From NCBI GenBank assembly GCA_013375375.1, contig JABXJX010000007.1, positions 1-46,735 on the forward strand: a stretch of 46,735 nt of DNA. Reading direction: 5' to 3'. The position numbers and the translations under genes were made by a program. Of this stretch, positions 5,155 through 44,815 are shown piece after piece; positions within the stretch are counted from its first letter, which is position 1; every line of letters starts with the position of its first letter. The stretch comes from Desulfobacterales bacterium (GTDB taxonomy: Bacteria > Desulfobacterota > Desulfobacteria > Desulfobacterales > C00003060). A model generated the notes under the pieces. It saw only the letters and a program-made list of their open reading frames with translations, had not been told where the DNA came from and did not search any database.

Positions 5155-5733
5155 TTAGGTCAAATAGCACTCTTTTAACCGGTTAAATTCACTTAATTCT
5201 TCAGACGAGATTTCGGTGGTTGGTGGCGCCTCTTTTTGCTTTACCTCTTTTCGCGGCATATCTTGGGCAAGGTTCTCGGGGGTTACCTGTTGAAAATATA
5301 TTGCTGGTTCATCAAGGTCTTCAACTTGCAAGATGTTGTACTTAACAAGGTGAACTCTTAACTTGTTGGTCAAGTTATCTATCACGTGACAGATTGCGGG
5401 GGAAAAATCGTCAGAGAAAAGATACATGCCAAGTCCACAGTCGTCCTTGAAAAAAAACTCACTGACTGTGATAAATTCCTTAAGCCAAAAATAATATGAA
5501 ATTGACGAGATGAGGAACTTCTCACGGTCCTCTTTATAATTCAGCCTGGCGACGGTCAGATTGGTTTTGGCTTTATTGATAAATGAGAAGTCTGAGGACC
5601 CGAACTTGGGAGAATGGACGTTGTCTATGTGAACAACATCTTCATTGGAATGCATTAAGAAATTCTTGGCTGCATACACCACTTCTCTTCTAGGAATGGC
5701 CATGGTAACAGCCTCGTAAATTGCCTTCACCAT
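5155..5733 (-). CDS. Hypothetical protein
   Basis: 192 aa ORF overlapping the upstream ParA-like gene by a few bases, suggesting an operon. Confidence 0.65.
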   Translation of the reverse strand: MVKAIYEAVTMAIPRREVVYAAKNFLMHSNEDVVHIDNVHSPKFGSSDFSFINKAKTNLTVARLNYKEDREKFLISSISYYFWLKEFITVSEFFFKDDCGLGMYLFSDDFSPAICHVIDNLTNKLRVHLVKYNILQVEDLDEPAIYFQQVTPENLAQDMPRKEVKQKEAPPTTEISSEELSEFNRLKECYLT

Positions 5734-6608
5734 TGCTGCCGCCTTTTCAGGTCAATATGTTTTTTTGAGGTCAGGCTGTCCGCCAGTTTTCTTATTGATT
5801 GAGAAACGGGGGAGTCTTCTGTCTCCGGAAGGGAAGGGGGTTGGGGAAATGTTGACCAGGATAAATCAGTTTCTTTGTAAATGGTCCCCATAAAACGAAC
5901 CTTGCATGAGAGAAACTTGTCCGCCATCGCCGCCATTACGCTAAAAGCCGCTTCACCCTTTTGGGAATGACGTTCTTCCATTACCAAGAGACCGATCTTT
6001 CCACCAGGCATACCTCGTGAGATTTGTTTGACCAACAAATATGAGTTTAATAGCTCTTCTGAATGAACAGTCGTGGAAACTATGAAAAAGGGGTTCACAA
6101 GGGGAAGTGTCTCCCGAGATCCGATAATGTCAGAGGAGACGTTTATGATAAGAAAGTCGGATTTACTACTTAGCCTGTGTAGAATTGCCAAGAAATCGGC
6201 AGAATCAAGGCCTTTCTCCCAAAAAATGGCGTTCACGTTTTCGTAGCCACCAAAGAGAAAAAACGTGTATGGCAGTCTGGTAGTAGTCTCGATTAGCCCA
6301 ACGGAAAAATTTCTTCTTGCCAATTCCAGGGCCAGGTTGCAAGCAAGACAAGACTGCACTGCAATAAGGCTGTTTGAAGAAAGAAGCAAGCATAAATTGC
6401 CTTTGACTGGTGCGGCGAAAACCGCTTCTTCGAGTCCTTCCTTCAACGCGACGTCACCGGGCAGAGGACCAATTTTACCGACATCGGCCCGGACCTCTTT
6501 TCCCGTTGGCTCACTTGCTTGGTCTAAGGGACCCCGGCCGGACAGGAAAAAATGAGATACTTTGTCTAAGCTCCTCCCGTGGGTTCTTTTATGTTCCATT
6601 CCAGACAA
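5727..6608 (-). CDS. Degenerate ParA/MinD-like P-loop protein
   Basis: 293 aa; 'NLCLLLSSNSLIAVQSCLACNLALELARRNFSVGLIETTTRLP...DFLIINVSSDI' follows the ParA/MinD layout but lacks the Walker A GKxxT/S. Confidence 0.55.
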   Translation of the reverse strand: MSGMEHKRTHGRSLDKVSHFFLSGRGPLDQASEPTGKEVRADVGKIGPLPGDVALKEGLEEAVFAAPVKGNLCLLLSSNSLIAVQSCLACNLALELARRNFSVGLIETTTRLPYTFFLFGGYENVNAIFWEKGLDSADFLAILHRLSSKSDFLIINVSSDIIGSRETLPLVNPFFIVSTTVHSEELLNSYLLVKQISRGMPGGKIGLLVMEERHSQKGEAAFSVMAAMADKFLSCKVRFMGTIYKETDLSWSTFPQPPSLPETEDSPVSQSIRKLADSLTSKKHIDLKRRQQW

Positions 6609-6616
6609 ATTAACAT

Positions 6617-7714
6617 TTAGATATTGATAACAGAATTTGTATGTCCTGTAGGATCGTTAACTACTTTATCGTTTTCCGGATCAGTAATCCACCAACCGTC
6701 AATCAGGTATTTATATTGGTAGGCACCCGGCTTGAGCGGGATGATCTTTTGCCACGTTGGCTTGCTCATGGGATCACATAAATCAAGGGCCTCGGGAATC
6801 CAGTTGTTGAAATCGCCGGCAATCTGTACCGCGGCGGTCTCAGGGGCTTCTAATGTGAATACGATTTTCCGTTCAACCGGTTCCGTAGACGACTTATCAT
6901 CTGTAAAGAGAGACTCATGGCCCCGGATTTCAGCATCCATTTCAGCCTCTTCGTCTATGATTTCCTCCGTCAGATTTTGATAATCTCGGAAGGCCGCGCA
7001 CTGCTTGTCGTATTCAGCAATGGGCTTTCCGTGGATGGCAGCTTCTCTCAATCGGGTGCATGTATGGATAACGGTCTTAAAGCACTTTTCAGGAAATTCT
7101 GCCCTCAACGTCTCCATCACCCCTCTACAGAAGTTGGTCCTGAGATCAATGTTTGTGGCCAGAATCTTGATGGAGAGCCGGTGTTCCACCTTCTCTTCGA
7201 TTATCCGGATGGTATCTATCAGCTTCCTTAGCCCGTGGAGAGAAAAGAAACTGGAGTCAACAGGAATAATCACCTCCCTGGACGCCATCAAACCATTAAA
7301 AGTTAAAAGACCTATGCTGGGAGGACTGTCAATGATGAGATAGTCGTAATTGTTTTCAATGTGCTCAAGGTTTTGCACAAGCCTATATTCCCGCCCAGGG
7401 ACACCGGCCATGACCTGCTCAAAGGCGCTCAAGACCACATCACTGAAAACAGCGCTCAGGTTCTCCCTTAAGATTTGGATGGCTTTGCTTATTGGTATTT
7501 TCTCTGATAAGACTTCATAGATGGTTTTTTCTATCTCGTCAGGTTTTACCCCAAGCCCAAGTGCTGAATGCCCCTGGGGGTCCAGGTCGATCAGGAGTAC
7601 CTTCCTGCCTTCTCCTGCTAGACAACCGGCTAAATTTATCGCTGTTGTTGTTTTGCCGCAGCCGCCTTTTTGATTGACAAGCGCAATTTTTCTCATAGCC
7701 CTTCCCTCCCTCAT
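6617..7714 (-). CDS. ParA-family ATPase with C-terminal glycogen-binding (AMPK-CBM/CBM48) domain
   Basis: 365 aa; Walker A 'NQKGGCGKTTTAINLAGCLA', 'VLLIDLDPQGHSALGLG', 'YLIIDSPPSIGLLTFNGL'; C-terminus 'KIVFTLEAPETAAVQIAGDFNNWIPEAL...LKPGAYQYKYLIDGWWITDPENDKVVNDPTGHTNSVINI' is a textbook AMPK-type CBM. Start likely at the internal MRKIALVNQKGG. Confidence 0.9.
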   Translation of the reverse strand: MREGRAMRKIALVNQKGGCGKTTTAINLAGCLAGEGRKVLLIDLDPQGHSALGLGVKPDEIEKTIYEVLSEKIPISKAIQILRENLSAVFSDVVLSAFEQVMAGVPGREYRLVQNLEHIENNYDYLIIDSPPSIGLLTFNGLMASREVIIPVDSSFFSLHGLRKLIDTIRIIEEKVEHRLSIKILATNIDLRTNFCRGVMETLRAEFPEKCFKTVIHTCTRLREAAIHGKPIAEYDKQCAAFRDYQNLTEEIIDEEAEMDAEIRGHESLFTDDKSSTEPVERKIVFTLEAPETAAVQIAGDFNNWIPEALDLCDPMSKPTWQKIIPLKPGAYQYKYLIDGWWITDPENDKVVNDPTGHTNSVINI

Positions 7715-15323: not shown

Positions 15324-15620
15324 ATGCTGAAGAAGACCTATTCAAAAACAGGTCGCTTGTGCCGGGTGACCTTTGACATCCCAGCAGAGGTCAACGCAAA
15401 GACCGCCTCCCTGTGCGGCGAATTCAACGAATGGGATCGCGCCGCCAATCCCATGAAGCGTCGAAAAAACGGCAGGCACAGCACCACGATCTCCCTGAAA
15501 ACGGGCCGGACGTACCGATTCAGGTATTTGCTGGACGGCCAGCGCTGGGAAAACGATTGGGCCGCGGACGGCTATGCACTCAACAGCTTCGGCACCGAGG
15601 ATTCACTGATCAAGGTATAA
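15324..15620 (+). CDS. Stand-alone isoamylase-N/CBM48 glycogen-binding-like protein
   Basis: 98 aa 'VTFDIPAEVNAKTASLCGEFNEWDRAANPMKRRKNGRHSTTISLKTGRTYRFRYLLDGQRWENDWAADGYALNSFGTEDSLIKV'. Confidence 0.88.
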   Translation: MLKKTYSKTGRLCRVTFDIPAEVNAKTASLCGEFNEWDRAANPMKRRKNGRHSTTISLKTGRTYRFRYLLDGQRWENDWAADGYALNSFGTEDSLIKV

Positions 15621-28352: not shown

Positions 28353-29357
28353 GTGAAACCGTCAAGAATCATATCCTTTGTGGTCCTTATCCTTTTCCTT
28401 GCGGCCGCGTGCGCGGGGTTCTCCTTTTATCGATACGCCACAATACCGGCCAGCGCCTCTGAGACGGGCGTCGTGGTCTGGATAAAACCGGGTCAGAGTT
28501 TCTCTGAAACAATTGCCCAACTTGAAGAAGCCGGTTTAGTGCGGCACCCGAAAAAGTTTCGATGGCTTGCCTGTCTCATGCGGGATGAGAGGCACATACG
28601 GGCCGGAGAATATTTGATTCGGGCATCTATGCCGCCTTTGGCAATCCTGAATACTTTAGTCAGTGGCGAAACACTACTTCATAAAGTAGTCGTCCCCGAG
28701 GGTGCCACGGTCCTTAAGATAGGGAAGATCATTGAAAAAGCCGGGCTCGTGTCTGGAGATGCCTTTTTGCGGGCCGCCGGCGATCCCGTCCTCATAAAAA
28801 CCCTTGGCCTGGAAAGTCACAGCCTTGAAGGATATCTCTTCCCTGAAACGTATCACTTCCCAAGGGGTGTGACGGCTGAAGATGTGATAAAGAAGATGGT
28901 CGCCAATTTTCGTTCGGTCTTCACAGCGGAATCGGCCAGACAGGCCGACGCCATGGGTTTTACCACGCATCAGGTAGTAACGCTTGCCTCTATTGTTGAA
29001 AAGGAGACGGCAAGGCCCGAAGAACGGCCTCTTATAGCGGCCGTGTTTTTGAATCGGCTGAAACATCACATGCGCCTTGAGAGCGACCCTACGGTCATCT
29101 ACGGCATCAAGGACTTTAACGGGAACCTGACTCGCAAGGATCTCAAGACCATGACTCCGTATAATACTTACAAGATCAAGGGCCTGCCTCCGGGCCCCAT
29201 TGCAAATCCCGGACGAGCCTCCATTGAGGCCGTCCTTTATCCGTCCAAAGAACCCTACCTGTACTTTGTGTCAAAGAATGACGGCTCTCACCACTTTTCC
29301 CCCACCCTGCGCGAGCACAACCGGATGGTGCAACGATATCAGCTCCACCGACCGTAG
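28353..29357 (+). CDS. mltG: Endolytic transglycosylase MltG
   Basis: 'LEGYLFPETYHFPRGVTAEDVIKKMV', 'LASIVEKETARPEERPLIAAVFLNRL', 'MRLESDPTVIYGI', 'YNTYKIKGLPPGPIANPGRASIEAVLYP'. Confidence 0.96.
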   Translation: MKPSRIISFVVLILFLAAACAGFSFYRYATIPASASETGVVVWIKPGQSFSETIAQLEEAGLVRHPKKFRWLACLMRDERHIRAGEYLIRASMPPLAILNTLVSGETLLHKVVVPEGATVLKIGKIIEKAGLVSGDAFLRAAGDPVLIKTLGLESHSLEGYLFPETYHFPRGVTAEDVIKKMVANFRSVFTAESARQADAMGFTTHQVVTLASIVEKETARPEERPLIAAVFLNRLKHHMRLESDPTVIYGIKDFNGNLTRKDLKTMTPYNTYKIKGLPPGPIANPGRASIEAVLYPSKEPYLYFVSKNDGSHHFSPTLREHNRMVQRYQLHRP

Positions 29358-29530
29358 CTTTTGTTCGGCTTTTTTATGTTTACACTTCATATAGTGCCCC
29401 TGCAGATGTGTCGCTACTATATATTGGTGGCGCATAGCACCCCACAAAAAACCACAGGGCGTCGCCCGCCTTTTCGATTTTAACCTCCACTAATTATTTA
29501 AAAAATAATAACCTCATTTATATTTTTTTC

Positions 29531-29559
29531 TTGACATTACAGCGTCGAGTCGGTATTAA
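29531..29559 (+). promoter_or_regulatory. Sigma-70-like promoter of the dcw cluster
   Basis: TTGACA (29531-29536), 17-bp spacer, TATTAA (29554-29559). Confidence 0.75.
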
Positions 29560-29566
29560 ATTAAAT

Positions 29567-29585
29567 AGTGGCGCAAAGTGGATGT
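29567..29585 (+). promoter_or_regulatory. Candidate MraZ-binding site (two GTGG boxes with 10-bp period)
   Basis: aGTGGcgcaaaGTGGatg: GTGG at 29568 and 29578, just upstream of mraZ, as known for MraZ autoregulation. Confidence 0.6.
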
Positions 29586-29611
29586 AGTTAGAACCTGTTG
29601 AGGTTAAAATT

Positions 29612-30061
29612 ATGTTTCGGGGCAGCTCATTTCATAACATGGATTCTAAGGGTCGATTGATTATCCCGACCCGTTTTCGGGATGTATTGAAGCAGAGCAG
29701 CGTGGACGGGCTTATGATCTCTAAGATGGATGCCGCCCTCTTCTGCTATACCTTCGAAGAATGGCGAAAGATTGAAGATCGTATCCTCAGCCTTGCCGTG
29801 AAGAGTGAAAATATGCGTCGTTTCCGGCGTATTTTTGTAGGCGGCGCCCATGAATGTCTCCTTGACAAACAGTCACGCATTTTGATCCCGCCGAGCCTTC
29901 GGCAGTATGCGGGTCTGAACAAAGGAATCGTTCTTGTAGGGGTGCTCGATCATTTTGAGATATGGGCCAAGGAAAACTGGACCCGGGAAGACGAGAACCT
30001 GCACAATGATGTTATTAAAAACGAAAAGTTAAGGAACGAGATTGCTGAACTGGGGCTATAA
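29612..30061 (+). CDS. mraZ: Transcriptional regulator MraZ
   Basis: 'MFRGSSFHNMDSKGRLIIPTRFRDVL...CLLDKQSRILIPPSLRQYAGL', with dcw synteny. Confidence 0.96.
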   Translation: MFRGSSFHNMDSKGRLIIPTRFRDVLKQSSVDGLMISKMDAALFCYTFEEWRKIEDRILSLAVKSENMRRFRRIFVGGAHECLLDKQSRILIPPSLRQYAGLNKGIVLVGVLDHFEIWAKENWTREDENLHNDVIKNEKLRNEIAELGL

Positions 30062-30173
30062 CTTCGTTAATCTTAAGATTGCGGGTCATTAACGAAGCTT
30101 GGGAACTAACAGGACCAGGGCTTATTATTATGATGAAAATCTTTTGAATTAACGGGATAAAGGTGAATTGGCC

Positions 30174-31115
30174 ATGCAATACCGCCATGTCCCGGTCATG
30201 GTCAAAGAAGTCATTGAATATCTAAACTGCTTACCCGGCAAGACATATGTGGATGGTACCTTGGGGGGAGGTGGCCATGCCAAGGCTATTTTGGAGGCTA
30301 TTGGTTCAGACGGTTCTCTTATCGGCATCGACAAAGATCCGGATGCGATTGCCCACGCCGGGAAATCCCTCCATTCGTTTAAACCGAACGTTCAAATCTT
30401 TCACGATAACTTTACCAATCTCCCGGAAATTCTTTCCAGGTTACACATCACCGGGGTTGACGGGATTTTGCTGGACCTGGGGCTTTCACTCTACCAACTG
30501 GAAGGAAGCGGTCGGGGTTTCAGCTTCATGCGTGATGAGCCGCTGGATATGCGTATGAATCCTGAGCAGGGGCAAACAGCCGAAGAGCTTGTAAACAGGC
30601 TATCGAAAAAGAGGCTTGCGGAGCTGATATCCCGGTATGGGGAGGAGCCGAGGGCCGCTCGTATTGCAAAATCTATTGTGGATAGCCGTCATCAACAGGC
30701 GATTCAATCAAGCTTACAATTTGCCGAAATCGTCAAGAAGGCGATTCCGGCTAAATATCGCCGGGGGCGAATCCATCCGGCCACACGGACATTTCAAGCT
30801 ATAAGGATTGCGGTGAACCAGGAACTTGAGGCCCTGGAAAAATTCTTTGACGATGCAATCAATCTCCTGAATCCAAGAGGTCGGTTTTGCGTCCTGTCGT
30901 TCCATTCACTGGAAGACCGTATCGTCAAGGAGCGTTTCAAAGTCCTCGCCCGGGGGTGTACCTGCCCGCCGCGTTTTCCGCAATGTGTGTGCGGAAAAGT
31001 CCCCCAGGTCTCTATCTTGACCAAGAAGCCGGTACGGCCCGGTCAAGCAGAGGTACAGGCAAATCCCATGGCTCGAAGCGCAAAGCTCAGGGCGGCGGAA
31101 CGGCTTGGGGATTGA
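30174..31115 (+). CDS. rsmH: 16S rRNA (cytosine(1402)-N(4))-methyltransferase RsmH
   Basis: 'HVPVMVKEVIEYLNCLPGKTYVDGTLGGGGHAKAIL', 'GILLDLGLSLYQL', 'RGFSFMRDEPLDMRMN'. Start taken at the second Met. Confidence 0.96.
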   Translation: MQYRHVPVMVKEVIEYLNCLPGKTYVDGTLGGGGHAKAILEAIGSDGSLIGIDKDPDAIAHAGKSLHSFKPNVQIFHDNFTNLPEILSRLHITGVDGILLDLGLSLYQLEGSGRGFSFMRDEPLDMRMNPEQGQTAEELVNRLSKKRLAELISRYGEEPRAARIAKSIVDSRHQQAIQSSLQFAEIVKKAIPAKYRRGRIHPATRTFQAIRIAVNQELEALEKFFDDAINLLNPRGRFCVLSFHSLEDRIVKERFKVLARGCTCPPRFPQCVCGKVPQVSILTKKPVRPGQAEVQANPMARSAKLRAAERLGD

Positions 31116-31195
31116 TGATTGATGATTGACGATTGAATTGAATATTGAGTCTTTCAATTGACAATCGACAATCGACAATCGACAATCGACAATAG
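31110..31195. repeat. Heptameric repeat cluster 1 (GATTGAT)n ... (ACAATCG)n forming a hairpin
   Basis: gattgatgattgatgattgac ... caattgacaatcgacaatcgacaatcgacaatcgacaatag. Confidence 0.9.
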
Positions 31196-31247
31196 TCATT
31201 AGTCACTGGTCAAAGCATTTCGTAACGGCTGCTTAGAGAGGGGCGCT

Positions 31248-31526
31248 GTGAAAAGAAAGGGGCGACATCACATGATGGCCGTATGGGTCGTACTCATGGT
31301 GGTCTTTATAGCAGAACTCCTGGTCTATACCTGGTGCAGGGTGCAGTACGTGCGAACCGGGTATGAGATTGCCCAGACTACTATAGAGCACCAGCGCTTG
31401 ATGGAACTTCACAGGAAGCTGAAGGTAGAGGATGCCCGTTTGAAATCCCCTGAACGTATCGCCCGCATAGCCCGGCAACGAGGGCTGGTGATGCCTGATT
31501 CAAAACAGGTGGTAGTGATTCCATGA
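31248..31526 (+). CDS. ftsL: Cell division protein FtsL
   Basis: 92 aa, one TM segment, C-terminal 'RLKSPERIARIARQRGLVMP', located between rsmH and ftsI. Confidence 0.88.
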   Translation: MKRKGRHHMMAVWVVLMVVFIAELLVYTWCRVQYVRTGYEIAQTTIEHQRLMELHRKLKVEDARLKSPERIARIARQRGLVMPDSKQVVVIP

Positions 31527-33295
31527 TGACACGAAGCACAAAGAAATCGAATCCGTTAAAGTGGGTCCGGTTTCGGGTCATTCTGGTGGGGACTGTTTTT
31601 GGTCTTTGCTTTGCTTTTTTAGTGGGGCGGGCTTTTCAATTGCAGATCCTTGAAGGCGAGCAGCTTAAGACCAAGGCCGCGGTTCAATACAAGAGGGCCC
31701 TTAACAACAGGCCCGAACGGGGTACCATCTATGACCGAAACCACGCGGAGCTGGCGTCAAGCATCAAGGTAGCTTCAATCTGCGCCTATCCAGAGCAGAT
31801 TTCTTCTCCGAGACAGACCGCCTCGGCCCTTGCCCGTGCCTTAAACCTGGAGCGAGATTCCATCTTAGGGAAACTATCCTCCAGCAAGAACTTTGTCTGG
31901 ATCAAAAGGCACGCGGATCCCACAGAGGTCTCGGCGGTCAGAAAATTAGATGTGGACGGAATCGACTTTGTCACGGAGAGCCGCCGGTTTTATCCCCTGA
32001 AGAACCTGGCTTCACAGGTAATAGGGTTTTGCGGGATGGACGGGATGGGCCTGGAGGGCCTGGAATTCTATTATGACTCATTCTTGAATGGCCGCGAAAA
32101 CAGCCGGACGGTTCTGATAGATGCCCTTGGCCGGGGCTTTACGGCTAAAGGTCCCTTTCATGAAGGCAAACCAGTGTATAACCTGATTTTGACCATTGAA
32201 AAAAACATTCAGTATATTGCCGAGCAGGCCCTCTCTGAAGGCGTAAAAAAGTTTTGGGCCAAGTCGGGCACGGCGCTGGTTATAGTTCCCAGGACAGGAG
32301 AAATCCTGGCCATGGCCCACGTGCCGAGGTTTAACCCGAATGCCTTCAGCCAATACGAACCCTGGTTATGGCGAAATCGTGCGATCACGGACTCCTTTGA
32401 GCCTGGTTCTACCTTCAAGATACTCGTTGCCGCTTCAGCGCTGGAATCAGGAGCCTGCACACCTAATTCAGAGTTTTACTGCGAGAATGGCGCCTATCGA
32501 ATCGGCAGAAATGTGGTGCACGACATTCGTCCTTATGCCACGCTTTCGTTTCAGGATATCCTGAAATACTCCAGCAACATCGGCGCCGCCAAGATGGGAG
32601 AAAAGGTCGGATCGGCTTACCTCTACCACAAACTCAAGGAATTCGGTTTTGGAGACAGGTCCGGTATCGACTGTCCGGGCGAGACCCGTGGCAGCTTACT
32701 CCCTGTTGGACGCTGGTCTGAGATCGATGCCGGGGCAATCTGCTTTGGGCAGAGCGTTTCCGTGTCGGCCTTGCAGATCGCGGCAGCAGTCTCTGCCATA
32801 GCGAATGATGGATTCCTGATGAAGCCGTATTTGGTGCAGGAGATGACGGACGTGCAGGGCCGCGTAGTAAAACGTTTTAAGCCCACTGTTTTACGACAGG
32901 TCGTTTCATCTAAAAACGCCCGGCGCTTGACACGTATGATGGAAAGAATCGTGGAGAAAGGTGGTACCGGTGTCCGGGCAGCCTTGAAGAACTATAAAGT
33001 TGCCGGAAAGACCGGTACGGCCCAGAAGGCCGATCCTGCAGGAGGCGGGTATTCAGATGACAGATACATAACCTCCTTTGTAGGATTTGTACCTGCTGAA
33101 CGCCCGGAGATTCTGGTCCTGGTCGTTATTGATGAGCCTCAGAAGAGTCATTATGGCGGAGTGGTGGCCGCTCCAGTGTTTAAACGTATAGCCCGAGAGA
33201 CTCTTCGGCATTTGAAGGTTCCTCCCGAGGTGGCTGTTGCCCAAATCGCCACAATGCAGATGTCGTCGGAAGCCGTGAGGGGACATCTTTTTTGA
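31523..33295 (+). CDS. ftsI: Peptidoglycan transpeptidase FtsI (PBP3)
   Basis: 'RGTIYDRNHAELASS', 'SFEPGSTFKILVAASALE', 'SSNIGAAKMGEKVG', 'VAGKTGTAQKADP'. Confidence 0.96.
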   Translation: MMTRSTKKSNPLKWVRFRVILVGTVFGLCFAFLVGRAFQLQILEGEQLKTKAAVQYKRALNNRPERGTIYDRNHAELASSIKVASICAYPEQISSPRQTASALARALNLERDSILGKLSSSKNFVWIKRHADPTEVSAVRKLDVDGIDFVTESRRFYPLKNLASQVIGFCGMDGMGLEGLEFYYDSFLNGRENSRTVLIDALGRGFTAKGPFHEGKPVYNLILTIEKNIQYIAEQALSEGVKKFWAKSGTALVIVPRTGEILAMAHVPRFNPNAFSQYEPWLWRNRAITDSFEPGSTFKILVAASALESGACTPNSEFYCENGAYRIGRNVVHDIRPYATLSFQDILKYSSNIGAAKMGEKVGSAYLYHKLKEFGFGDRSGIDCPGETRGSLLPVGRWSEIDAGAICFGQSVSVSALQIAAAVSAIANDGFLMKPYLVQEMTDVQGRVVKRFKPTVLRQVVSSKNARRLTRMMERIVEKGGTGVRAALKNYKVAGKTGTAQKADPAGGGYSDDRYITSFVGFVPAERPEILVLVVIDEPQKSHYGGVVAAPVFKRIARETLRHLKVPPEVAVAQIATMQMSSEAVRGHLF

Positions 33296-34875
33296 GGACA
33301 CGGTATGTTGGAGGTGCCGGCGGAGGGGTGAAGCTAAGTCTACTTCTGGGGGGCGTGAAGGTTAAGCGTTTTGTCGGACTTGAGGATCAGATCATTGATT
33401 CGATCCACTATGATTCGCGTACTGTGACGACTGGAGGACTGTTTGTGGCGATCCATGGACAACACTGCGATGGAAACGACTACATTGAAGATGCGGTTGA
33501 AAAGGGAGCTGTCGCTGTTTTAACGGAAAAGGTGTGGTCCGGGCCGTCATCTGTCAGCGTGGTTCAGGTTGAAGATGCCCGGTTGGCACTGGCTGCTCTT
33601 TCATCGACGTTTTACAGGGATCCGTCCCGGGAGCTTTGTATAATCGGCATTACCGGTACAAACGGTAAAACAACAACGGCATATTTCTTGGAATCTATCT
33701 TGAATGCCGCCGGGCTTAAAGTCGGAGTTATCGGAACCATCAACTACAGATTCGGAGGGAAAAGCTTTACCAGTCCGGTGACGACACCGGAGTCCCTTGA
33801 TCTTATGCAGCTGCTTCGCAATATGTCCGACAGCGGTACAACGCACGTGGTCCTTGAGGTCTCTTCGCACGGCCTTGATCTCCAACGGGTGGCCTTCTGC
33901 GAGTTCGACGTTGGAGTTTTTACCAATCTGTCCAGGGATCACCTCGACTATCACCGGGACATGGAAAGCTATTGGCAGTGCAAAAGGGGGCTTTGCGTGG
34001 AGCGACTCGGGGTCGGATCAAAGCAGGGACGGGCCACCGCTGTTATCAACTGGGATGATCCCAAGGGAAAGGATTTATCCAATGAGGTTGCTGTTCCGTG
34101 CTTGCGAGTCGGGCTTTCAGACGAGTGCGAGATTCAGGCTCGCGATATCAAACTCGCCATAGACGGCACCTCGGGCAGGGTAAAGACCCCTGAGGGCGAT
34201 TTTGATTTTACATCTTCCCTGGTGGGAAACCACAATGTGTACAATATCCTGTCCGCCACGGGTGTGGCAATAGCACTCGGTATACCTGTAGAGAAGATTC
34301 AAAAAGGAGTCAACGATCTTCAGGGGATACCGGGCAGGCTTGAGCGCGTGGACAGTGAAAAGGACTTTTCGATCTTTGTCGACTACGCCCATACGCCGGA
34401 CGCCCTTGAGAACGTGTTGACTCTTCTGAGGGAAGTAACATCCAGCCGCGTGATCACCATATTCGGGTGCGGAGGAGATCGTGATCGAGACAAGCGTCCA
34501 ATGATGGGCGCTGTTGCGGGCAGGCTTAGTGATCTTGTTGTGTTGACTTCCGATAACCCGCGTACCGAGGCGCCAAAGGAGATACTGGCGGGTATTGTTG
34601 AGGGGACCGCTGTTGTGCAAAGTCACCGATATGAACCCCATGAATTGGCAAAGGGGTTTGAGACCAAGGGCTATGTTGTAGAGCCGGATCGGAGAAGGGC
34701 TATTGCATTGGGTCTTGGCGCTGCCAGGTCAGGTGACTCGGTGCTCATTGCCGGCAAGGGACATGAAACCCATCAGATCATAGGCGAGGCCAGCATACCA
34801 TTTGACGACAGGGCGGAGGCGAGAAAGGCACTGGGATTGATGATTGTCGATTGTCGATTGTTGATTGACGATTGA
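33292..34875 (+). CDS. murE: UDP-MurNAc-L-Ala-D-Glu ligase MurE
   Basis: '[21 protein letters not shown]', 'SSHGLDLQRV', 'VDYAHTPDALENVL', 'DNPRTEAPKEILAGI'. Confidence 0.95.
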   Translation: MRTRYVGGAGGGVKLSLLLGGVKVKRFVGLEDQIIDSIHYDSRTVTTGGLFVAIHGQHCDGNDYIEDAVEKGAVAVLTEKVWSGPSSVSVVQVEDARLALAALSSTFYRDPSRELCIIGITGTNGKTTTAYFLESILNAAGLKVGVIGTINYRFGGKSFTSPVTTPESLDLMQLLRNMSDSGTTHVVLEVSSHGLDLQRVAFCEFDVGVFTNLSRDHLDYHRDMESYWQCKRGLCVERLGVGSKQGRATAVINWDDPKGKDLSNEVAVPCLRVGLSDECEIQARDIKLAIDGTSGRVKTPEGDFDFTSSLVGNHNVYNILSATGVAIALGIPVEKIQKGVNDLQGIPGRLERVDSEKDFSIFVDYAHTPDALENVLTLLREVTSSRVITIFGCGGDRDRDKRPMMGAVAGRLSDLVVLTSDNPRTEAPKEILAGIVEGTAVVQSHRYEPHELAKGFETKGYVVEPDRRRAIALGLGAARSGDSVLIAGKGHETHQIIGEASIPFDDRAEARKALGLMIVDCRLLIDD

Positions 34876-35001
34876 TGATTGATGATTGTTGATTGTTGAT
34901 TGTTGATTGTTGATTGTTGATTGTCGATTGATGATTGACGGGCTGTTGGTTAATAACGAATAACAAATAACGAGCAACGAGCAACGAGCAACGAGCAACG
35001 A
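34835..35001. repeat. Heptameric repeat cluster 2: (GATTGTT/C)n then (CGAGCAA)n
   Basis: gattgttgattgttgattgttgattgttgattgtcgattg... and cgagcaacgagcaacgagcaacgagcaacgag. Confidence 0.93.
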
Positions 35002-36408
35002 GTGACTAGTAACTCAAAAACCTGGGGTGTTTCGGATGTCTTGCACGCCACAGGAGGTCGCCTGGTATGCGGAAGTGAGGAGACTCGATTTCAGGCTATT
35101 TCCACTGATTCCCGAACTGCCGAGCATGGCGATCTTTTCATAGCAATCGCGGGAGAGAAGTGCGACGGACACGACTTTTTGCAGGAGGCCTTTGACAGGG
35201 GTGCCCTGGGTGTGCTGGTGGCCGAGGACTATATTAGCAAGAGATCCCAGGCGCCCAAAGGCGAGAAACACTGGATAGCCGTGCCGGACACCCTAAAGGC
35301 GTTGGGCGACCTGGCTGCATTTGGTCGCCGACAGAGCAACGTTTCAGTGGTAGCCGTAACCGGAACAAACGGCAAGACCACGACAAAGGAGATGACAGCT
35401 TCGGTGCTCAGCCAAACCTTTAATGTATTGAAGACGTCGGGCAATTTCAACAACCTGATTGGATTGCCCCTTACACTCTTTGGTTTGAACGATAGCCATG
35501 AATGGGCTGTCCTTGAAGTTGCCATGAATCGTCCGGGTGAAATCCGCCGACTTACTGAAATCGCTAATCCTGACCTGGGTGTGATTACCAACGTAGAGGC
35601 CGGCCACCTGGAGGGTGTAAAAGACATAGACGGGGTTATGGAGGCCAAGGGCGAACTCCTTGAGGGGCTTGGGCAAGACGGCACGGCAGTATTAAATATT
35701 GATGACCAGAGGGTTTGCAGACTGGCGGAGCGGTTTAGCGGACGCGTGGTGAGCTTCGGTATTGAGAGTTCCGCCGAGGTATCCGGAACTCCGGTGTCTC
35801 AAACTCGCTCGGGCGTTTCCTTTGATCTTTCCTGGTATGACGAGTCAATCAGGGTGTCCCTAAAGATTCCCGGCAAGGCTGCCATCTACAACGCCTTGGC
35901 CGCAGCAGCCGTAGGATATCGAGCGGACTTGTCAATAGAGCAGGTAAAAAAAGGCCTGGAAAGCGCTGTTCCGCTCCCCGGGCGCATGGAGATCTCAACA
36001 CTCCCCGGCGGCATTCACCTGATTGATGATACATACAATGCCAATCCCGGCTCTGTGGCAGCGGCTATTGAGACGCTTTGCTCCTTAAAGGGTAGCGGCA
36101 GGGGTATCTTTGTCATAGGAGACATGCTGGAATTAGGACAACACGCCCAAGCCGCACACAAGCATATTGGAATATTGGCAGAGCGGGCAGGCCTGGCAGG
36201 TCTCTATGTTACAGGTGAGTTCGCGGGTGCAGTGACCGAAGGCGCCGTAGGAGCGGGCATGGACCATAGAAAGATCTCTATCGGCACCCGGGAAGAGATT
36301 GTGGAAGTCCTTAAGGAGCGCTTGGGACCCGGAGACTGGGTCCTAATAAAGGGGTCTCGGCTTACGGCCATGGATAAAGTGGTTCAGGGATTGATGATTG
36401 ATGATTGA
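35002..36408 (+). CDS. murF: UDP-MurNAc-tripeptide:D-Ala-D-Ala ligase MurF
   Basis: '[21 protein letters not shown]', '[12 protein letters not shown]', '[19 protein letters not shown]'. Confidence 0.95.
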
Positions 36409-36454
36409 CGGGCTGTTGGTTAATAACAAGTAACGAACAACGAGCAACTAACAA
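36389..36454. repeat. Heptameric repeat cluster 3
   Basis: gattgatgattgatgattgacgggctgttggttaataacaagtaacgaacaacgagcaac; 'gattgacgggctgttggttaataac' is shared with cluster 2. Confidence 0.88.
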
Positions 36455-36455
36455 T

Positions 36456-37535
36456 ATGCTTTATCATTTACTATATCCGCTTCATACGACCTTTTCGGCC
36501 TTTAACGTATTTCGCTACATTACGTTCAGGACCATCTATGCCAGCCTTACAGCACTTTTGATATGTTGGCTGTTGGGACCATGGGTGATACGGAAACTTA
36601 CAAAACAACAGGTACTCCAGCATGTGAGGACGGACGGCCCCCCGACTCACAAAACCAAGACCGGTACGCCTACCATGGGAGGGCTGTTGATCCTCTTTGC
36701 CATTGTGACGGCCACACTTCTTTGGGCCGACCTGACAAATTCATTTGTGTGGTTAGTACTACTTGTGGTGATCAGCTATGGCGCTATTGGTTTTTTAGAT
36801 GACTACCTGAAGCAGGTTAAGAAGGAAAGCAGGGGACTTCCCGGACGAATCAAGATTGTGAGCCAGGTGGTCATAGGGTTGCTCGTGGCCGGGCTACTTT
36901 ATACACGTGTTGATTTCGATACCCATGTGAGTCTCCCCTTTTTTAAGCAGGTAGCCCCTGATCTTGGCTGGGCTTATATCCTTTTTGCTGTTGCGGTCAT
37001 TGTGGGAACTTCTAATGCAGTGAATTTGACGGACGGTCTGGATGGTCTTGCCATCGGACCGGTGACAGTGGCTGCGGCCACCTACGTTGTACTGTCATAC
37101 GTAGCAGGCCATATGAAGATCGCCCAATATCTTCAGATTCATTATGTGGCGGGAAGCGGGGAACTGGCCGTGATTTGCGGCGCTCTAATGGGGGCCGGGA
37201 TGGGATTTCTCTGGTACAATTCCTATCCGGCCCAGATATTCATGGGAGATGTTGGGTCCCTTCCCCTGGGTGGAGCGCTTGGAGCGGTCGCGGTAATTAC
37301 CAAGCATGAGATTCTCCTGGCCCTTGTGGGAGGCATTCTTGTAGTAGAGGCGCTGTCGGTTATTTTTCAGGTGGGATTTTTTAAGGTCACAAATGGGCGT
37401 CGCATTTTCAAGATGGCTCCCATCCATCATCACTTTGAGTTAAAGGGATGGCCCGAGCCCAAGGTGATCGTCAGGTTCTGGATCGTCGCCATTATCTTGA
37501 GCCTGGTAGCGATCAGCACGTTGAAATTGCGGTAG
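36456..37535 (+). CDS. mraY: Phospho-MurNAc-pentapeptide transferase MraY
   Basis: '[15 protein letters not shown]', '[15 protein letters not shown]', '[19 protein letters not shown]', '[15 protein letters not shown]'. Start at the internal Met. Confidence 0.96.
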
Positions 37536-37579
37536 GCCGGATGGACTCGTTATTCGTGAATCGTGAACCGGAATATAAA

Positions 37580-37680
37580 AATGCGATACCTGATACCGGA
37601 TACCCGATAGCCGTCAAGGATTTATTCTTGTATGCAGGCAGGCAAAATGTATCAGGCATCAGGCATGCGCTATCGGGTAT
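37580..37680. repeat. Intergenic 'gata(c)ccggatacccgata' repeats between mraY and murD
   Basis: tgcgatacctgataccggatacccgatagcc ... aggcatcaggcatgcgctatcgggtatcgg; heptad-like and inverted. Confidence 0.7.
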
Positions 37681-37720
37681 CGGCCGGAAACGACTGAGGA
37701 GACAGGTTGAACAGACTAAA

Positions 37721-39115
37721 TTGGAGAACGCATTGTTGAGTTTCGAAAATAAAAAGGTCCTGGTTGTCGGTTTGGCCAAGACCGGACTTGCGGTTGCCCG
37801 GTTCTTGAAAGATCGCGGGGCGCGGGTTACCGCAACCGATCTAAAGAAAAAGGATGAACTTGGCTCCTGTGTCCAGGAGGCCCTTGCCATGGGCGTTTCC
37901 CTGAAGCTTGGGGAACACAAGAGCGAAAGTTTTACGGGCGCGGACTTCATTGTGGTGAGTCCCGGGGTGCCACACAACATAACACCTTTAGGGGCGGCAA
38001 GGAGAGCGGGGATACCGGTAATCGGCGAGGTGGAACTGGCATCCCGCTACATAGATGAACCGATCGTAGCCGTCACCGGGACCAATGGCAAGACTACTAC
38101 TACAAGTCTTATCGGCAAGATGTTGCAGGATTCCGGCCGTAAGGTATTTGTGGGAGGCAACATAGGTGACCCACTGATAGATCACCTTAATTCCGGCGCA
38201 GACGCGGACGTGATCGTAGCAGAGATCAGCAGTTTTCAACTCGATACCATCAAGAGCTTCAGACCCAAGGTAGGGGTTCTTTTAAATATTACAGAAGACC
38301 ATCTCGATCGTTACAACGATTTCAATGACTATGCGCGATCAAAGGGAAGGCTGTTTAAAAATCAAGAGAGCACCGATTTTGCGGTTTTAAACGGGATGGA
38401 CCCTGCGGTTTGCGGACTTGAATCAATTATTGCCGGTCAAAAACTCTATTTTAACATCGATATCTCAGGGACTCACCCCGTGTCTGAGGACCGGCACGGA
38501 GTCGTGATCAGGGGCAAGGAGATGATCTGCAGCCTTCCCGGAAAGGCTCCCGTCATACTGAGCCTGGCTAAGCTCAGGCTCAAGGGAGAACACAATCTGG
38601 AGAATGCCGCTGCCGCGACACTGGCAGCGTTAGCCGCAGGGGCCGACCGGGCAGGTATTCAAACGGCACTCGACACCTATGAGGGTCTGCACCACCGGCT
38701 GGAATTTGTCAGGGATGTCAACGGCATCGAGTACTACAATGACTCCAAGGCTACTAATGTCGATGCCGTCAAGCGTTCCCTGGAGAGTTTTACCTCCCCG
38801 GTAATCTTGATCATGGGTGGGCGGGACAAAGGCGGCAGTTACGCGTTGCTAAAGGAGCTTATAAGGAAACGTGCCAAGGGGCTCATTGCCATTGGAGAGG
38901 CGCGCGAAAAGATCTTAAGCACCCTTGGGGGGCTAACGCATAGTGAAGGGACAAGGACTCTCACAGACGCGGTCCGCCTGGCTCACAAGGGAGCAGCCCC
39001 GGGTGATGTCGTACTCCTGTCACCAGGGTGCTCCAGTTTTGACATGTTTATTGACTATGCCGAACGCGGCGAGGAGTTCTGCAAGGCAGTGAGTGGATTG
39101 ATGATTGATGATTGA
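37721..39115 (+). CDS. murD: UDP-MurNAc-L-Ala:D-Glu ligase MurD
   Basis: 'KKVLVVGLAKTGLAVARFL', '[20 protein letters not shown]', 'NDSKATNVDAVKRSLESF'. Start approximate (TTG 37721 or 37736); the ORF upstream part is repeat-derived. Confidence 0.93.
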   Translation: MENALLSFENKKVLVVGLAKTGLAVARFLKDRGARVTATDLKKKDELGSCVQEALAMGVSLKLGEHKSESFTGADFIVVSPGVPHNITPLGAARRAGIPVIGEVELASRYIDEPIVAVTGTNGKTTTTSLIGKMLQDSGRKVFVGGNIGDPLIDHLNSGADADVIVAEISSFQLDTIKSFRPKVGVLLNITEDHLDRYNDFNDYARSKGRLFKNQESTDFAVLNGMDPAVCGLESIIAGQKLYFNIDISGTHPVSEDRHGVVIRGKEMICSLPGKAPVILSLAKLRLKGEHNLENAAAATLAALAAGADRAGIQTALDTYEGLHHRLEFVRDVNGIEYYNDSKATNVDAVKRSLESFTSPVILIMGGRDKGGSYALLKELIRKRAKGLIAIGEAREKILSTLGGLTHSEGTRTLTDAVRLAHKGAAPGDVVLLSPGCSSFDMFIDYAERGEEFCKAVSGLMIDD

Positions 39116-39179
39116 TGATTGTCTATTGACTAATAACAGACTCAATATTCAATCGTCAATCATCAATCGTGAGCAACCA
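39096..39179. repeat. Heptameric repeat cluster 4, hairpin
   Basis: gattgatgattgatgattgatgattg ... tcaatattcaatcgtcaatcatcaatcg. Confidence 0.9.
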
Positions 39180-40292
39180 ATGACTATCTACAAACGAACA
39201 AAAAAGGGCGGATATGACGGTTTCCTTTTACTGGGGACTGTGCTGCTGTTGGGGATCGGAGTGGTAATGGTCTACAGTGCAAGCTCAGCTGTTGCAATGA
39301 ACCGATTTGGAAGCGATGCCTACTTTTTCAAGAAACACGTGGTATATGTCCTCGCTGCAATCCTCGTGCTAATAGCCTGTCGGCATGTGCCGTACACTTT
39401 CTATGGAAGGATGGCATATCCGGTCCTTATAGTTGCTTTCTTATTGCTCCTTGCCCTGTACTTGCCCGGGGTGGGACATCCGGTTGGGGGTGCCAGGCGA
39501 TGGTTGAGGTTTTGTGGGATTTCCTTTCAACCATCGGAGTTTGCGAGGCTGGCCCTGATCATCTATTTGGCATACTCCATGAGCAAGAAACAGGAGAAGA
39601 TCAAGGAGTTTACCATCGGCTTTCTTCCCCATATTATTGTATTTGGAAGTTTTGGGGCTCTGATCGTTATGCAGCCCGACTTTGGGATGGCGGCGATGCT
39701 TGCATTGGTTGCATGGACGATGCTCTTTGTCGGAGGTGTGCGTCTGACTTACCTTGTCACAGCGTTTGTGGGGGTTCTCCCAATTGCCTACTACCTACTG
39801 ATTAATGTGGGATATCGTCTAAGGCGACTAACAAGCTTCCTCCATCCATGGAAATACGAGAGCGACGCCGGATATCAGATCGTGCATTCACTGATGGCTC
39901 TTGGCTCAGGAGGAGTTATGGGGTCGGGCATTGGAAAAAGTTACCAGAAGCTTTTCTATCTTCCGGAGCCCCATACTGACTTTATCTTTTCGGTGATAGG
40001 AGAAGAATTAGGCCTTGTGGGGGTGTGCTTTGTAATCGGACTTTATGTCATGATCCTCTGGCGGGGGATCGCCGTGGCAATGAAGGCCAAAGATCTTTTC
40101 GCAATCTATTTAGCCATAGGGTTGATTTCCGTTCTTGGTCTGCAGGTGTGCGTCAACGTAGGTGTTGTCATGGGTTTATTGCCTACGAAGGGACTTACTC
40201 TGCCGTTTGTTAGCTATGGAGGCACGTCCCTTGTGATGAATGCAGCTGCAATAGGAATATTGATGAATATATCGGCCCGACAGGCAAGGTGA
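39180..40292 (+). CDS. ftsW: Lipid II polymerase / SEDS protein FtsW
   Basis: 'GIGVVMVYSASSAVAM', 'GARRWLRFCGISFQPSEFARLALIIYLA', 'PEPHTDFIFSVIGEELGLVG'. Start at the internal Met. Confidence 0.95.
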   Translation: MTIYKRTKKGGYDGFLLLGTVLLLGIGVVMVYSASSAVAMNRFGSDAYFFKKHVVYVLAAILVLIACRHVPYTFYGRMAYPVLIVAFLLLLALYLPGVGHPVGGARRWLRFCGISFQPSEFARLALIIYLAYSMSKKQEKIKEFTIGFLPHIIVFGSFGALIVMQPDFGMAAMLALVAWTMLFVGGVRLTYLVTAFVGVLPIAYYLLINVGYRLRRLTSFLHPWKYESDAGYQIVHSLMALGSGGVMGSGIGKSYQKLFYLPEPHTDFIFSVIGEELGLVGVCFVIGLYVMILWRGIAVAMKAKDLFAIYLAIGLISVLGLQVCVNVGVVMGLLPTKGLTLPFVSYGGTSLVMNAAAIGILMNISARQAR

Positions 40293-40294
40293 CC

Positions 40295-41374
40295 ATGAGG
40301 GTCCTCATTGCCGGCGGCGGCACGGGAGGGCATCTTTTCCCCGGGATTGCGATTGCTGAGGCATTCAGGGACAGGGAACCTACAACTGAAGTATTGTTTG
40401 TAGGAACGGGTAATCCCATAGAGATATCTACCATTTCAAAGAAAGGATTTGATCACGTGAAGATTGTAGCAGAAGGTTTTAAGGGAAGGGGCCTCTGGCG
40501 ACAGATCCGATCGTTGTTCAAGCTCCCTGTCGGGTTGTGGCAGGGATTGCGAATTATCCGGCAATTTGATCCTGACATCATCATTGGTGTCGGCGGATAC
40601 GCCTCAGGTCCGGTGGCCTTGGCTGGAAGGCCCACGGGAAAAAAGATAGTTATCCATGAACAGAATATCTTGCCGGGTCTAACTAATCGGATACTCGGGC
40701 GTTTCGCTAACCGGATATTCATCTCTTTCCCGGATAACTTTAGCATATTCAGACCCTCGAGGACTGTGATTACAGGAAACCCGGTGCGCCGTGAACTCCT
40801 TGCACGAAAATCGGACCGTAAGGCAACCGAGCAATTTACGGTCCTGGTACTGGGCGGCAGCCAGGGGGCTCATGCCGTAAACTGCGCGGTGATTGAGGCC
40901 CTTGATCATCTCGAAAACCCTAAGCGGATGACTTTTATCCATCAGACCGGGGCCAAAGATGCAGCGTGGGTTGCGCAGGCCTATAAGAGCCGGGGCATCA
41001 AGGCCAGAGTAGAGGCGTTTTTTGAGGACATGGCCGGACCTTACAGCTCGGCCGACTTGGTTATATGCAGGGCCGGCGCCACGACCGTGTCAGAGTTGAT
41101 GGCACTCGGCAGGCCTGCCATTTTCATCCCGTTCCCTTTTGCGGCGAATAACCATCAGGAACTGAACGCCCGCTATGTGGCCGATGCAGGCGGGGCAGAG
41201 GTTGTCCTGGAAAAGGATTTGAAAGGTGATCTCTTGGCCGGCAAACTCGATCATTATGCGTCGCACCCTGAAACGTTGCGGGATATGGCAAAGCAAATGC
41301 TGGCCATTGCGCGTCCAGATGCCGCAGACGTTATTGTGGATGAATGCCGCAGGTTGCTGGTGATTGGTAATTAG
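40295..41374 (+). CDS. murG: UDP-GlcNAc transferase MurG
   Basis: 'MRVLIAGGGTGGHLFPGIAIAEAF', 'GVGGYASGPVALAG', 'HEQNILPGLTNRIL', 'GGSQGAHAVN'. Confidence 0.96.
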   Translation: MRVLIAGGGTGGHLFPGIAIAEAFRDREPTTEVLFVGTGNPIEISTISKKGFDHVKIVAEGFKGRGLWRQIRSLFKLPVGLWQGLRIIRQFDPDIIIGVGGYASGPVALAGRPTGKKIVIHEQNILPGLTNRILGRFANRIFISFPDNFSIFRPSRTVITGNPVRRELLARKSDRKATEQFTVLVLGGSQGAHAVNCAVIEALDHLENPKRMTFIHQTGAKDAAWVAQAYKSRGIKARVEAFFEDMAGPYSSADLVICRAGATTVSELMALGRPAIFIPFPFAANNHQELNARYVADAGGAEVVLEKDLKGDLLAGKLDHYASHPETLRDMAKQMLAIARPDAADVIVDECRRLLVIGN

Positions 41375-41398
41375 TCATTGGTCATTAGTTATTCGTTG

Positions 41399-41456
41399 GA
41401 TGCCCGATGCCCGATGCCCGATGCCTGATGCCTGATGCCTGATGCCTGATGCCTGA
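41399..41456. repeat. Heptameric repeat cluster 5a: (GATGCCC)3(GATGCCT)5
   Basis: Eight uninterrupted 7-bp units between murG and murC. Confidence 0.95.
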
Positions 41457-41483
41457 TATATCTTAGGCCGGCATCTATGAATG

Positions 41484-41548
41484 GTCAATCAACAATCAAC
41501 AATCAACAATCAACAATCAACAATCGACAATCGACAATCATCAATCGA
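41484..41548. repeat. Heptameric repeat cluster 5b: (AATCAAC)n/(AATCGAC)n
   Basis: gtcaatcaacaatcaacaatcaacaatcaacaatcaacaatcgacaatcgacaatcatcaatcg. Confidence 0.95.
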
Positions 41549-41551
41549 AAG

Positions 41552-42916
41552 ATGTATCAGAAATCATATCACATCCATTTTGTTGGGATCGGCGGAATTG
41601 GGATGAGCGGAATAGCAGAACTTCTCCTGAACCTTGGGTATAAGGTAAGCGGCTCAGACCTGCGGTCGACCGGCATTACCAGGCGATTGGCTCAACTTGG
41701 CGGGACTATATTTCAAGACCACCGCCCGGAACACATTCAAAGGGCGGATGCTGTGGTGATTTCCTCGGCAGTAGGAACGGATAACCCTGAAGTCGTGGCA
41801 GCAAAAGAGGCCGTTGTTCCGGTTATTCCAAGGGCGGAGATGTTGGCCGAACTGATGCGGCTGAAGTACAGTATTGCCGTGGCCGGTGCCCACGGCAAAA
41901 CCACAACGACCTGGATGATTGCATCGGTCCTTGACCATGGGGGGCTCGACCCCACAGTAGTCATCGGCGGCAAACTCGACAGCTTGGGAAGCAATGCCCG
42001 CCTGGGCCAGGGAGAGTTTATAGTGGCTGAAGCAGACGAAAGCGATGGCTCTTTCTTGAAGCTTACACCCACCATTGGCGTGGTAACAAACATTGATGCT
42101 GAACACCTGGATTTTTATGGTGACCTTGAAAAGATCAAGGAGGTATTCCTTGATTTTATCAACAAGGTACCATTCTATGGCATGGCGGTGCTATGTTTGG
42201 AAGACGAGGGGATTCAGGATCTGATTCCGAAAATTGAGAAACGGTTCACCACGTATGGGATGACATCCCAGGCGGATTATCAGGCAAGAGATGTGGCCTT
42301 TGAAGGCCTGACAAGCCGATACCGTATAACTTACCGCGGCAAAGCCATGGGCACCGTGGAACTGAACCTTCCCGGAATTCACAACGTGTATAACTCCATG
42401 GCGAGTATTGTCATTGGTATGGAACTCGGGATCCCCTTTGATAATATCCTTGACGCGCTCAAAGAGATTGAAGGTGTCCAGCGCAGGCTACAGGTAAAAG
42501 GATCCGCGCACGGAGTAACCGTGGTGGACGACTACGGACACCATCCGACTGAGATCAGGCTGACGCTTCAGGCGGTGCGTCAGTGCTGGCCGGATCGCCG
42601 GCTTGTTGTTGTGTTTCAGCCCCATCGTTACTCGCGGACTGCTGCCCTCTTTGACGATTTCACGCGTGCTTTTTACCAGGCGGATAGTCTTGTGGTGCTC
42701 CCAATCTATCCGGCAGGCGAGACCCCGATAGAAAACATAGACGGCCAAAGCCTCTGTGAGGAAATTCATCTGCATGGCCACAAGGATGTCGTGTTTCATG
42801 ATGGGCAGGATGCAGCTGTATCTTACTTGAAGAAAAACTTAATGGAGGGGGATGTATTATTGACCCTGGGGGCGGGGGATGTCTGGAAGGTGGGAGAAAA
42901 ATTTCTTGATGAATGA
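41552..42916 (+). CDS. murC: UDP-MurNAc:L-Ala ligase MurC
   Basis: 'HFVGIGGIGMSGIAELLLNLGYKVSGSDL', 'VAGAHGKTTTTWMIASVL', 'VVDDYGHHPTEIRLTL'. Start at the internal Met. Confidence 0.96.
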   Translation: MYQKSYHIHFVGIGGIGMSGIAELLLNLGYKVSGSDLRSTGITRRLAQLGGTIFQDHRPEHIQRADAVVISSAVGTDNPEVVAAKEAVVPVIPRAEMLAELMRLKYSIAVAGAHGKTTTTWMIASVLDHGGLDPTVVIGGKLDSLGSNARLGQGEFIVAEADESDGSFLKLTPTIGVVTNIDAEHLDFYGDLEKIKEVFLDFINKVPFYGMAVLCLEDEGIQDLIPKIEKRFTTYGMTSQADYQARDVAFEGLTSRYRITYRGKAMGTVELNLPGIHNVYNSMASIVIGMELGIPFDNILDALKEIEGVQRRLQVKGSAHGVTVVDDYGHHPTEIRLTLQAVRQCWPDRRLVVVFQPHRYSRTAALFDDFTRAFYQADSLVVLPIYPAGETPIENIDGQSLCEEIHLHGHKDVVFHDGQDAAVSYLKKNLMEGDVLLTLGAGDVWKVGEKFLDE

Positions 42917-44814: not shown

Positions 44815-44815
44815 A

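Follow-up and report, generated by a model that had tools for sequence, protein, structure and literature searches.

The window analysed here is the whole 46,735-nucleotide stretch of contig JABXJX010000007.1 (assembly GCA_013375375.1, positions 1 to 46,735) from a Desulfobacterales bacterium. It carries a gene, parA-CBM, that joins a Soj/ParA-type ATPase to a predicted carbohydrate-binding module, followed on the same strand by two further genes. A first-pass annotation, made from the letters alone, had located the fusion correctly at 6617-7714 and omitted its strand, which is minus. The features discussed below are as follows.

6617..7714, minus strand: parA-CBM gene, 365 aa; the inner ATG at 7696, whose M7 hardly varies among relatives, is a possible start
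6929..7696, minus strand: Soj/ParA-type ATPase domain, residues 7-262 (Pfam AAA_31, invariant columns in 77 homologues, Foldseek), with deviant Walker A KGGCGKT, signature lysine K16, D43/D45, Walker B D129 and basic R192/R221/R223
6620..6853, minus strand: predicted AMPK1_CBM/CBM48-like alpha-glucan-binding domain, residues ~288-365 (Pfam, PDB AMPK-beta matches, AF2 model)
6800..6802, minus strand: W305, equivalent to AMPK-beta1 W100
6689..6691, minus strand: W342, equivalent to AMPK-beta1 W133
5727..6599, minus strand: gene 2, MinD/FlhG-like with Walker A lost, beginning with a ParB-like basic peptide; likely start ATG 6599
6537..6578, minus strand: GRSLDKVSHFFLSG, the partner's conserved N-terminal peptide and a candidate ParA-activating motif (39 bits)
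5155..5733, minus strand: gene 3, 192 aa, sharing 7 nt with the end of gene 2; weak fold match
15324..15620, plus strand: stand-alone 98-aa CBM48/AMPK-CBM protein (Pfam), 8 kb from parA-CBM

A Soj-type ATPase and a predicted glucan-binding module in one protein

The reading frame is a single 365-aa ORF with no internal stops, and the combination of ParA ATPase and glycogen-binding (AMPK-CBM) module first recognized by eye was recovered by Pfam, with AAA_31 matching residues 7-182 (E=5e-54) and AMPK1_CBM (PF16561) matching residues 293-365 (E=1.7e-11, 44.6 bits against a gathering cut-off of 26.8). The best Foldseek matches were Soj/ParA structures (9a6n, E=7e-29, TMt 0.94; 8ray; 6iub), at 38-40% identity. 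In an alignment of 77 homologues, K16, G17, G18, K21, T22, D43, D45 and D129 were kept in every sequence, as was the basic DNA-binding position R192, with K or R at position 221 in 72 of 77 and at position 223 in 73 of 77. Given both the deviant Walker A motif and the Soj fold, ParA-CBM is a Soj-type ParA. Its AlphaFold2 model (mean pLDDT 92) has a linker at residues 272-281, with a flexible joint at 272-277, and a confident beta-rich C-terminal domain. According to Pfam and AlphaFold2, the C-terminus is the CBM, and a MinD-type amphipathic membrane-targeting helix is absent.

The C-terminal 77 residues alone matched crystal structures of the AMPK-beta CBM (1z0m/1z0n, 4y0g, 4yef) with E ~1e-7. 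F302, G330, Y334 and D345 were invariant across the 77 aligned fusions, and K335, at the position of AMPK-beta1 K126, was K or R in 75. Both W305 and W342 were also present in 77 of 77, a count that is circular because sequences entered this alignment (A1) by a pattern requiring both tryptophans; when rechecked without the pattern, each was found in all 113 locus entries, a few of which are duplicates. In AMPK-beta, whose CBM is a regulatory glycogen sensor, mutation of W100, K126 and W133 markedly lowers glycogen binding (PMC2642990). With both glycogen-contact tryptophans retained, glucan binding by this CBM is plausible, and the domain looks able to bind alpha-glucan; the possibility raised at the outset, that it might lack carbohydrate-binding aromatic residues, is contradicted by the invariant W305 and W342. 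The module could conceivably be an Ig-like interaction domain that binds no sugar, leaving the ParA to position some other cargo, as AMPK1_CBM and E-set folds do occur in non-carbohydrate settings (there is, for example, a weak NCBIfam match to a T9SS plug protein). We consider this improbable: pure scaffold use would permit drift, whereas the sugar-stacking tryptophans are constant over more than 10 phyla, and glycogen genes are found among the neighbours.

Spread of the fusion and its links to glycogen genes

A scan of genome contigs found the same fusion at 80 or more loci in more than 10 bacterial phyla, most of them matched over near full length, and together they make up a family. Carrier phyla, going by record titles, include Desulfobacterota, Omnitrophota, Planctomycetota, Myxococcota, Eisenbacteria, Rokubacteria, Acidobacteria, Zixibacteria, Latescibacterota, Auribacterota, Nitrospirota and others. 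Full-length homologues were 60-73% identical in other genomes of the window's genus and ~35-70% identical across many phyla, and when ParA domains were placed on a tree, every fused member joined a single well-supported group (100/99), to which the chromosomal ParAs beside ParB do not belong. The fusion is therefore not an accident of assembly, and both misassembly and chance fusion were ruled out. Its distribution is patchy: it was found in ~11 of 247 genomes in the phylum and in 7 of 22 genomes of the window's genus, the window included, several of these genomes being incomplete.

The only unfused members of the fused clade were five paralogues, all from the window's genus, which are best read from the tree as reflecting one loss of the CBM. 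These paralogues (L112, L113, L114, L115 and L116, from G013, G012, G011, G006 and G021) are 45-48% identical and end in a different, acidic tail; at L116/L009, a small peptide-bearing protein adjoins the CBM-less paralogue. A plain plasmid or chromosome partition ParA whose C-terminal tail is irrelevant would suit the 38-40% identity to Soj/ParA structures. We regard that reading as very improbable, given a clade separate from chromosomal ParAs beside ParB, the absence of ParB beside parA-CBM and a CBM maintained from phylum to phylum with a single clear loss.

Several neighbourhoods connect the fusion to glycogen metabolism. At locus L135, whose source genome is listed as 100% complete, a single strand encodes, in order, a GDE_N/GDE_C debranching enzyme, a GT5/GT4-like synthase, a GH57 protein, a Glycogen_syn+Phosphorylase fusion, ParA-CBM, gene 2 and gene 3. 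A GlgB ~50% identical to that of E. coli adjoins parA-CBM in L034 and L136, and the one beside it in L036 is a shorter GlgB; nine Omnitrophota-type loci have GH57 as the second gene upstream. Together, the glycogen-linked neighbourhoods represent ~3 independent lineages, against 0.4 expected under a rough Poisson estimate in which gene density was guessed (P ~0.008). In most loci, the window included, glycogen genes were not among the immediate neighbours of parA-CBM. No other recurrent cargo emerged from a scan of 122 neighbouring proteins, in which no family occurred in more than 4.

At the level of whole genomes, in a sample of 70 Desulfobacterota genomes, 7 of 8 fused genera had a strong GT5 glycogen synthase, compared with 11 of 38 genera lacking the fusion (Fisher p=0.004, with kinship ignored). 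The window's own genome encodes GT5 and a GlgP phosphorylase, together with two large CBM48 enzymes that match GlgB/GlgX in size. Most glycogen-making bacteria lack ParA-CBM; we count this against a role in glycogen positioning, together with its patchy presence in the window's genus and the small number of glycogen-linked lineages. A connection to glycogen, common to the positioning and sensing readings discussed below, nonetheless appears highly probable from the conserved binding residues, the glycogen neighbours in three lineages and the pathway in the host genome, which together lend good support to the link that the first-pass annotation had proposed.

The tight linkage to GlgB, GH57, GT5 and phosphorylase would also suit an enzyme scaffold, in which the CBM and the ATPase would bring glycogen enzymes to the granule surface or let them go, and thereby control synthesis or breakdown, with no movement on the nucleoid. 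This seems unlikely, as it leaves the retained basic DNA-binding positions (R192, K/R221 and K/R223) unexplained.

Two of the glycogen-linked loci have further features of their own. The 1441-aa protein at L135:11064-15389 (minus strand) is a GT3-type glycogen synthase fused to an alpha-glucan phosphorylase. At L036:6016-8494, a desulfobacterial-type parA-CBM precedes a truncated-looking GlgB on a 3.2-Mb chromosome whose label is that of a Methanomassiliicoccales archaeon, a placement that may reflect horizontal transfer or mis-binning.

Downstream partners with a shared basic N-terminal peptide

The main mechanistic clue, absent from the earlier annotation, is the set of downstream partner genes and the N-terminal peptide that they share. 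In the window, the likely ATG of gene 2 lies 17 nt past the parA-CBM stop and GRSLDKVSHFFLSG 39 nt past it. The downstream gene usually starts with the conserved basic peptide (L)GRGLEDISHLFLS, also given as (L)GRGLEDISHLFLSG. With a position matrix trained on adjacent-gene matches, and with non-adjacent sequence of the same loci as background, 37 non-duplicate loci had a peptide scoring 18 bits or higher, in each case on the same strand and directly downstream, whereas the best score elsewhere in parA-CBM loci was 17 bits. A pattern search of the same loci found no such peptide upstream of parA-CBM. A variant, PRDLADVLHYFLPE, occurs in Myxococcota, and many Phycisphaerae loci had none. In the Omnitrophota clade the exact downstream peptide is absent, and a basic KKEIYEHLAKIYLDASSKKK instead heads an upstream membrane protein. 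Both gaps count against the positioning reading given below.

The proteins that carry the peptide are otherwise unrelated: a MinD/FlhG-like protein (gene 2 of the window), the gene-3 domain (L047, L050, L052), a small protein (L043) and an HTH protein (L034, L136). One peptide on unrelated bodies is as expected of a portable ParA-binding motif. By its sequence, the GRGLEDISHLFLS-type peptide is similar to the N-terminal LGRGL motif with which ParB activates ParA, and ParB proteins of the same dataset begin with LGRGLDALIP-type peptides. The central arginine of the ParB motif is required for ParA stimulation and is predicted to lie near a conserved Y-E pocket (PMC12462528); in ParA-CBM the corresponding positions, equated by motif and not by structure, are Y66 (68 of 77) and D/E67 (62 of 77). 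In general, partners of ParA/MinD ATPases exert their effect via an N-terminus that is disordered and positively charged (PMC10241942).

Among solved structures, gene 2 is closest to FlhG (5e-32 to 4rz2), and hhalign also related it to ParA (96%). Gene 3 had no Pfam match and only a weak Foldseek match to NucS/EndoMS (E=1e-3, TM ~0.4); it may be a catalytically dead PD-(D/E)XK (NucS-like) fold. An active nuclease was rejected, as there was no PDB sequence match, the NucS/EndoMS fold match is weak and no E-x-K is conserved.

Two protein clusters flank the fusion in Omnitrophota. Members of cluster c4 (L090:5426-6001 and others) are membrane proteins directly upstream of parA-CBM, with a basic cytoplasmic N-terminus and an outer beta-sandwich domain that looks CBM11-like and has no Pfam match. 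Those of cluster c5 (L091:7421-7861 and others), downstream, combine a lysine-rich tail with an EF-Tu-domain-2-like barrel, again with no Pfam match.

The strongest rival to positioning is glycogen sensing, in which CBM occupancy would alter the ATPase or dimer state and a MinD/FlhG-like or HTH partner would signal to transcription or cell-cycle control. FleN/FlhG, an anti-activator, and AMPK, a glycogen sensor, serve as models for such a role. The proximity of gene 2 to FlhG/FleN and the regulatory nature of the AMPK CBM both favour it, as do the MerR/HTH domain in the peptide-bearing partner of L034/L136, the MerR-like genes just upstream in Myxococcota and L143, and the sigma-factor genes nearby; HTH-bearing partners and neighbouring regulators are also compatible with a regulatory role. 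No target promoter or regulator is conserved across the loci, however, and the DNA-binding and catalytic residues of ParA, with an activator peptide like that of ParB, suit the needs of a positioning system. We hold sensing to be possible but on the doubtful side.

A proposed cycle and its relation to known systems

ParA-CBM is probably a variant of the ParA cargo-positioning family that places, shares out or senses a glycogen store. Our main reading, to which we give roughly even odds (about 0.5), is that parA-CBM and genes 2 and 3 form a glycogen-handling operon around a nucleoid-based, Soj-like ParA whose cargo is glycogen and whose cargo module sits on the ATPase itself. What the sequences show is the domain architecture, conserved residues for catalysis, sugar contact and basic charge, a conserved peptide on the partner and glycogen genes nearby; from these we infer a cycle of nucleoid binding, glycogen binding, ATPase stimulation and positioning. 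ATP-bound ParA-CBM dimers would bind the nucleoid with no sequence specificity and glycogen particles through the C-terminal CBM. The downstream partner would insert its basic N-terminal peptide into the ParA dimer interface, stimulating ATP hydrolysis and releasing ParA-CBM from DNA. Rounds of binding and release could then spread glycogen over the nucleoid and share it between daughters, as opposed to its accumulating at the old pole.

Such a system would share with Soj/ParA of ParABS the ATPase fold, the deviant Walker A and signature lysine, the basic DNA-binding positions and, in sequence, a partner encoded downstream whose N-terminal peptide is basic and LGRGL-like. It differs in its predicted C-terminal glucan-binding domain, its non-ParB partner and its own clade. 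An adjacent ParB with a ParB/CTPase domain was sought at parA-CBM and not found, gene 2 being MinD/FlhG-like and gene 3 having no Pfam match, so ParA-CBM is not a ParABS system. McdA/McdB offers a parallel in the ParA-family positioning of metabolic (carbon) cargo that we propose and in a partner that acts through its basic N-terminus, but there the cargo module is on the partner and here it is on the ATPase; identity to McdA is 22-23%, and no microcompartment genes were seen with parA-CBM. The CBM shares its domain and sugar-stacking tryptophans with the AMPK-beta CBM (PF16561)/CBM48, although here it is fused to a ParA ATPase and not part of a kinase complex or glycosidase. Gene 2 has the fold of FlhG/FleN (MinD-like), and N-terminal helices are known to act on other SIMIBI NTPases, but the window's gene 2 lacks Walker A and a flagellar context. 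BcsQ is likewise a ParA-like ATPase tied to a polysaccharide, in cellulose biosynthesis, but has no carbohydrate-binding domain; ParA-CBM scored 63.5 bits against the BcsQ model (NCBIfam TIGR03371), below the cut-off of 157.85, and no bcs genes were seen with it. On these comparisons, ParA-CBM is neither MinD nor BcsQ.

The initial annotation knew of no described function, and our search of the open-access literature likewise found no description of a ParA-CBM fusion or a ParA-glycogen system. Known cargos of ParA/MinD ATPases include DNA, carboxysomes, chemotaxis arrays, flagella and the divisome, and glycogen is not named there (PMC10241942). Bacterial glycogen gathers at old poles, which has been attributed to diffusion and nucleoid exclusion, and in an E. 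coli csrA mutant polar glycogen displaces the chromosome and ends division (PMC4836754). If the positioning reading is true, active partition would be one way in which some bacteria avoid old-pole accumulation, the inheritance of carbon reserves could be tested directly, and ParA-CBM would be a polymer-binding ATPase whose motor itself bears the cargo module. The broader proposal, that a dedicated machinery in more than 10 phyla positions glycogen and shares it between daughters through a ParA ATPase that binds the polymer directly and an activator family marked by one portable peptide, is a tentative one to which we give slightly less than even odds. Such a peptide would also provide a sequence handle for partners of orphan ParAs.

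Several minor observations concern the surroundings of these genes. PADLOC gave only weak P-loop matches, and a role in anti-phage defence was rejected. Besides the 98-aa protein of the window, small stand-alone CBM48/AMPK-CBM proteins of several lineages lie 1-8 kb from parA-CBM at L033:4273-4560, L046:3357-3836, L048:3562-3909 and L136:7426-7710; as a peripheral and speculative suggestion, these may be accessory glucan-binding proteins. Further along the window, positions 28353-46042 (plus strand) hold an ordinary division and cell-wall cluster, read by eye from the translations as mraZ, mraW, ftsI, mur genes, ftsW, murG, ftsQ and ftsA.
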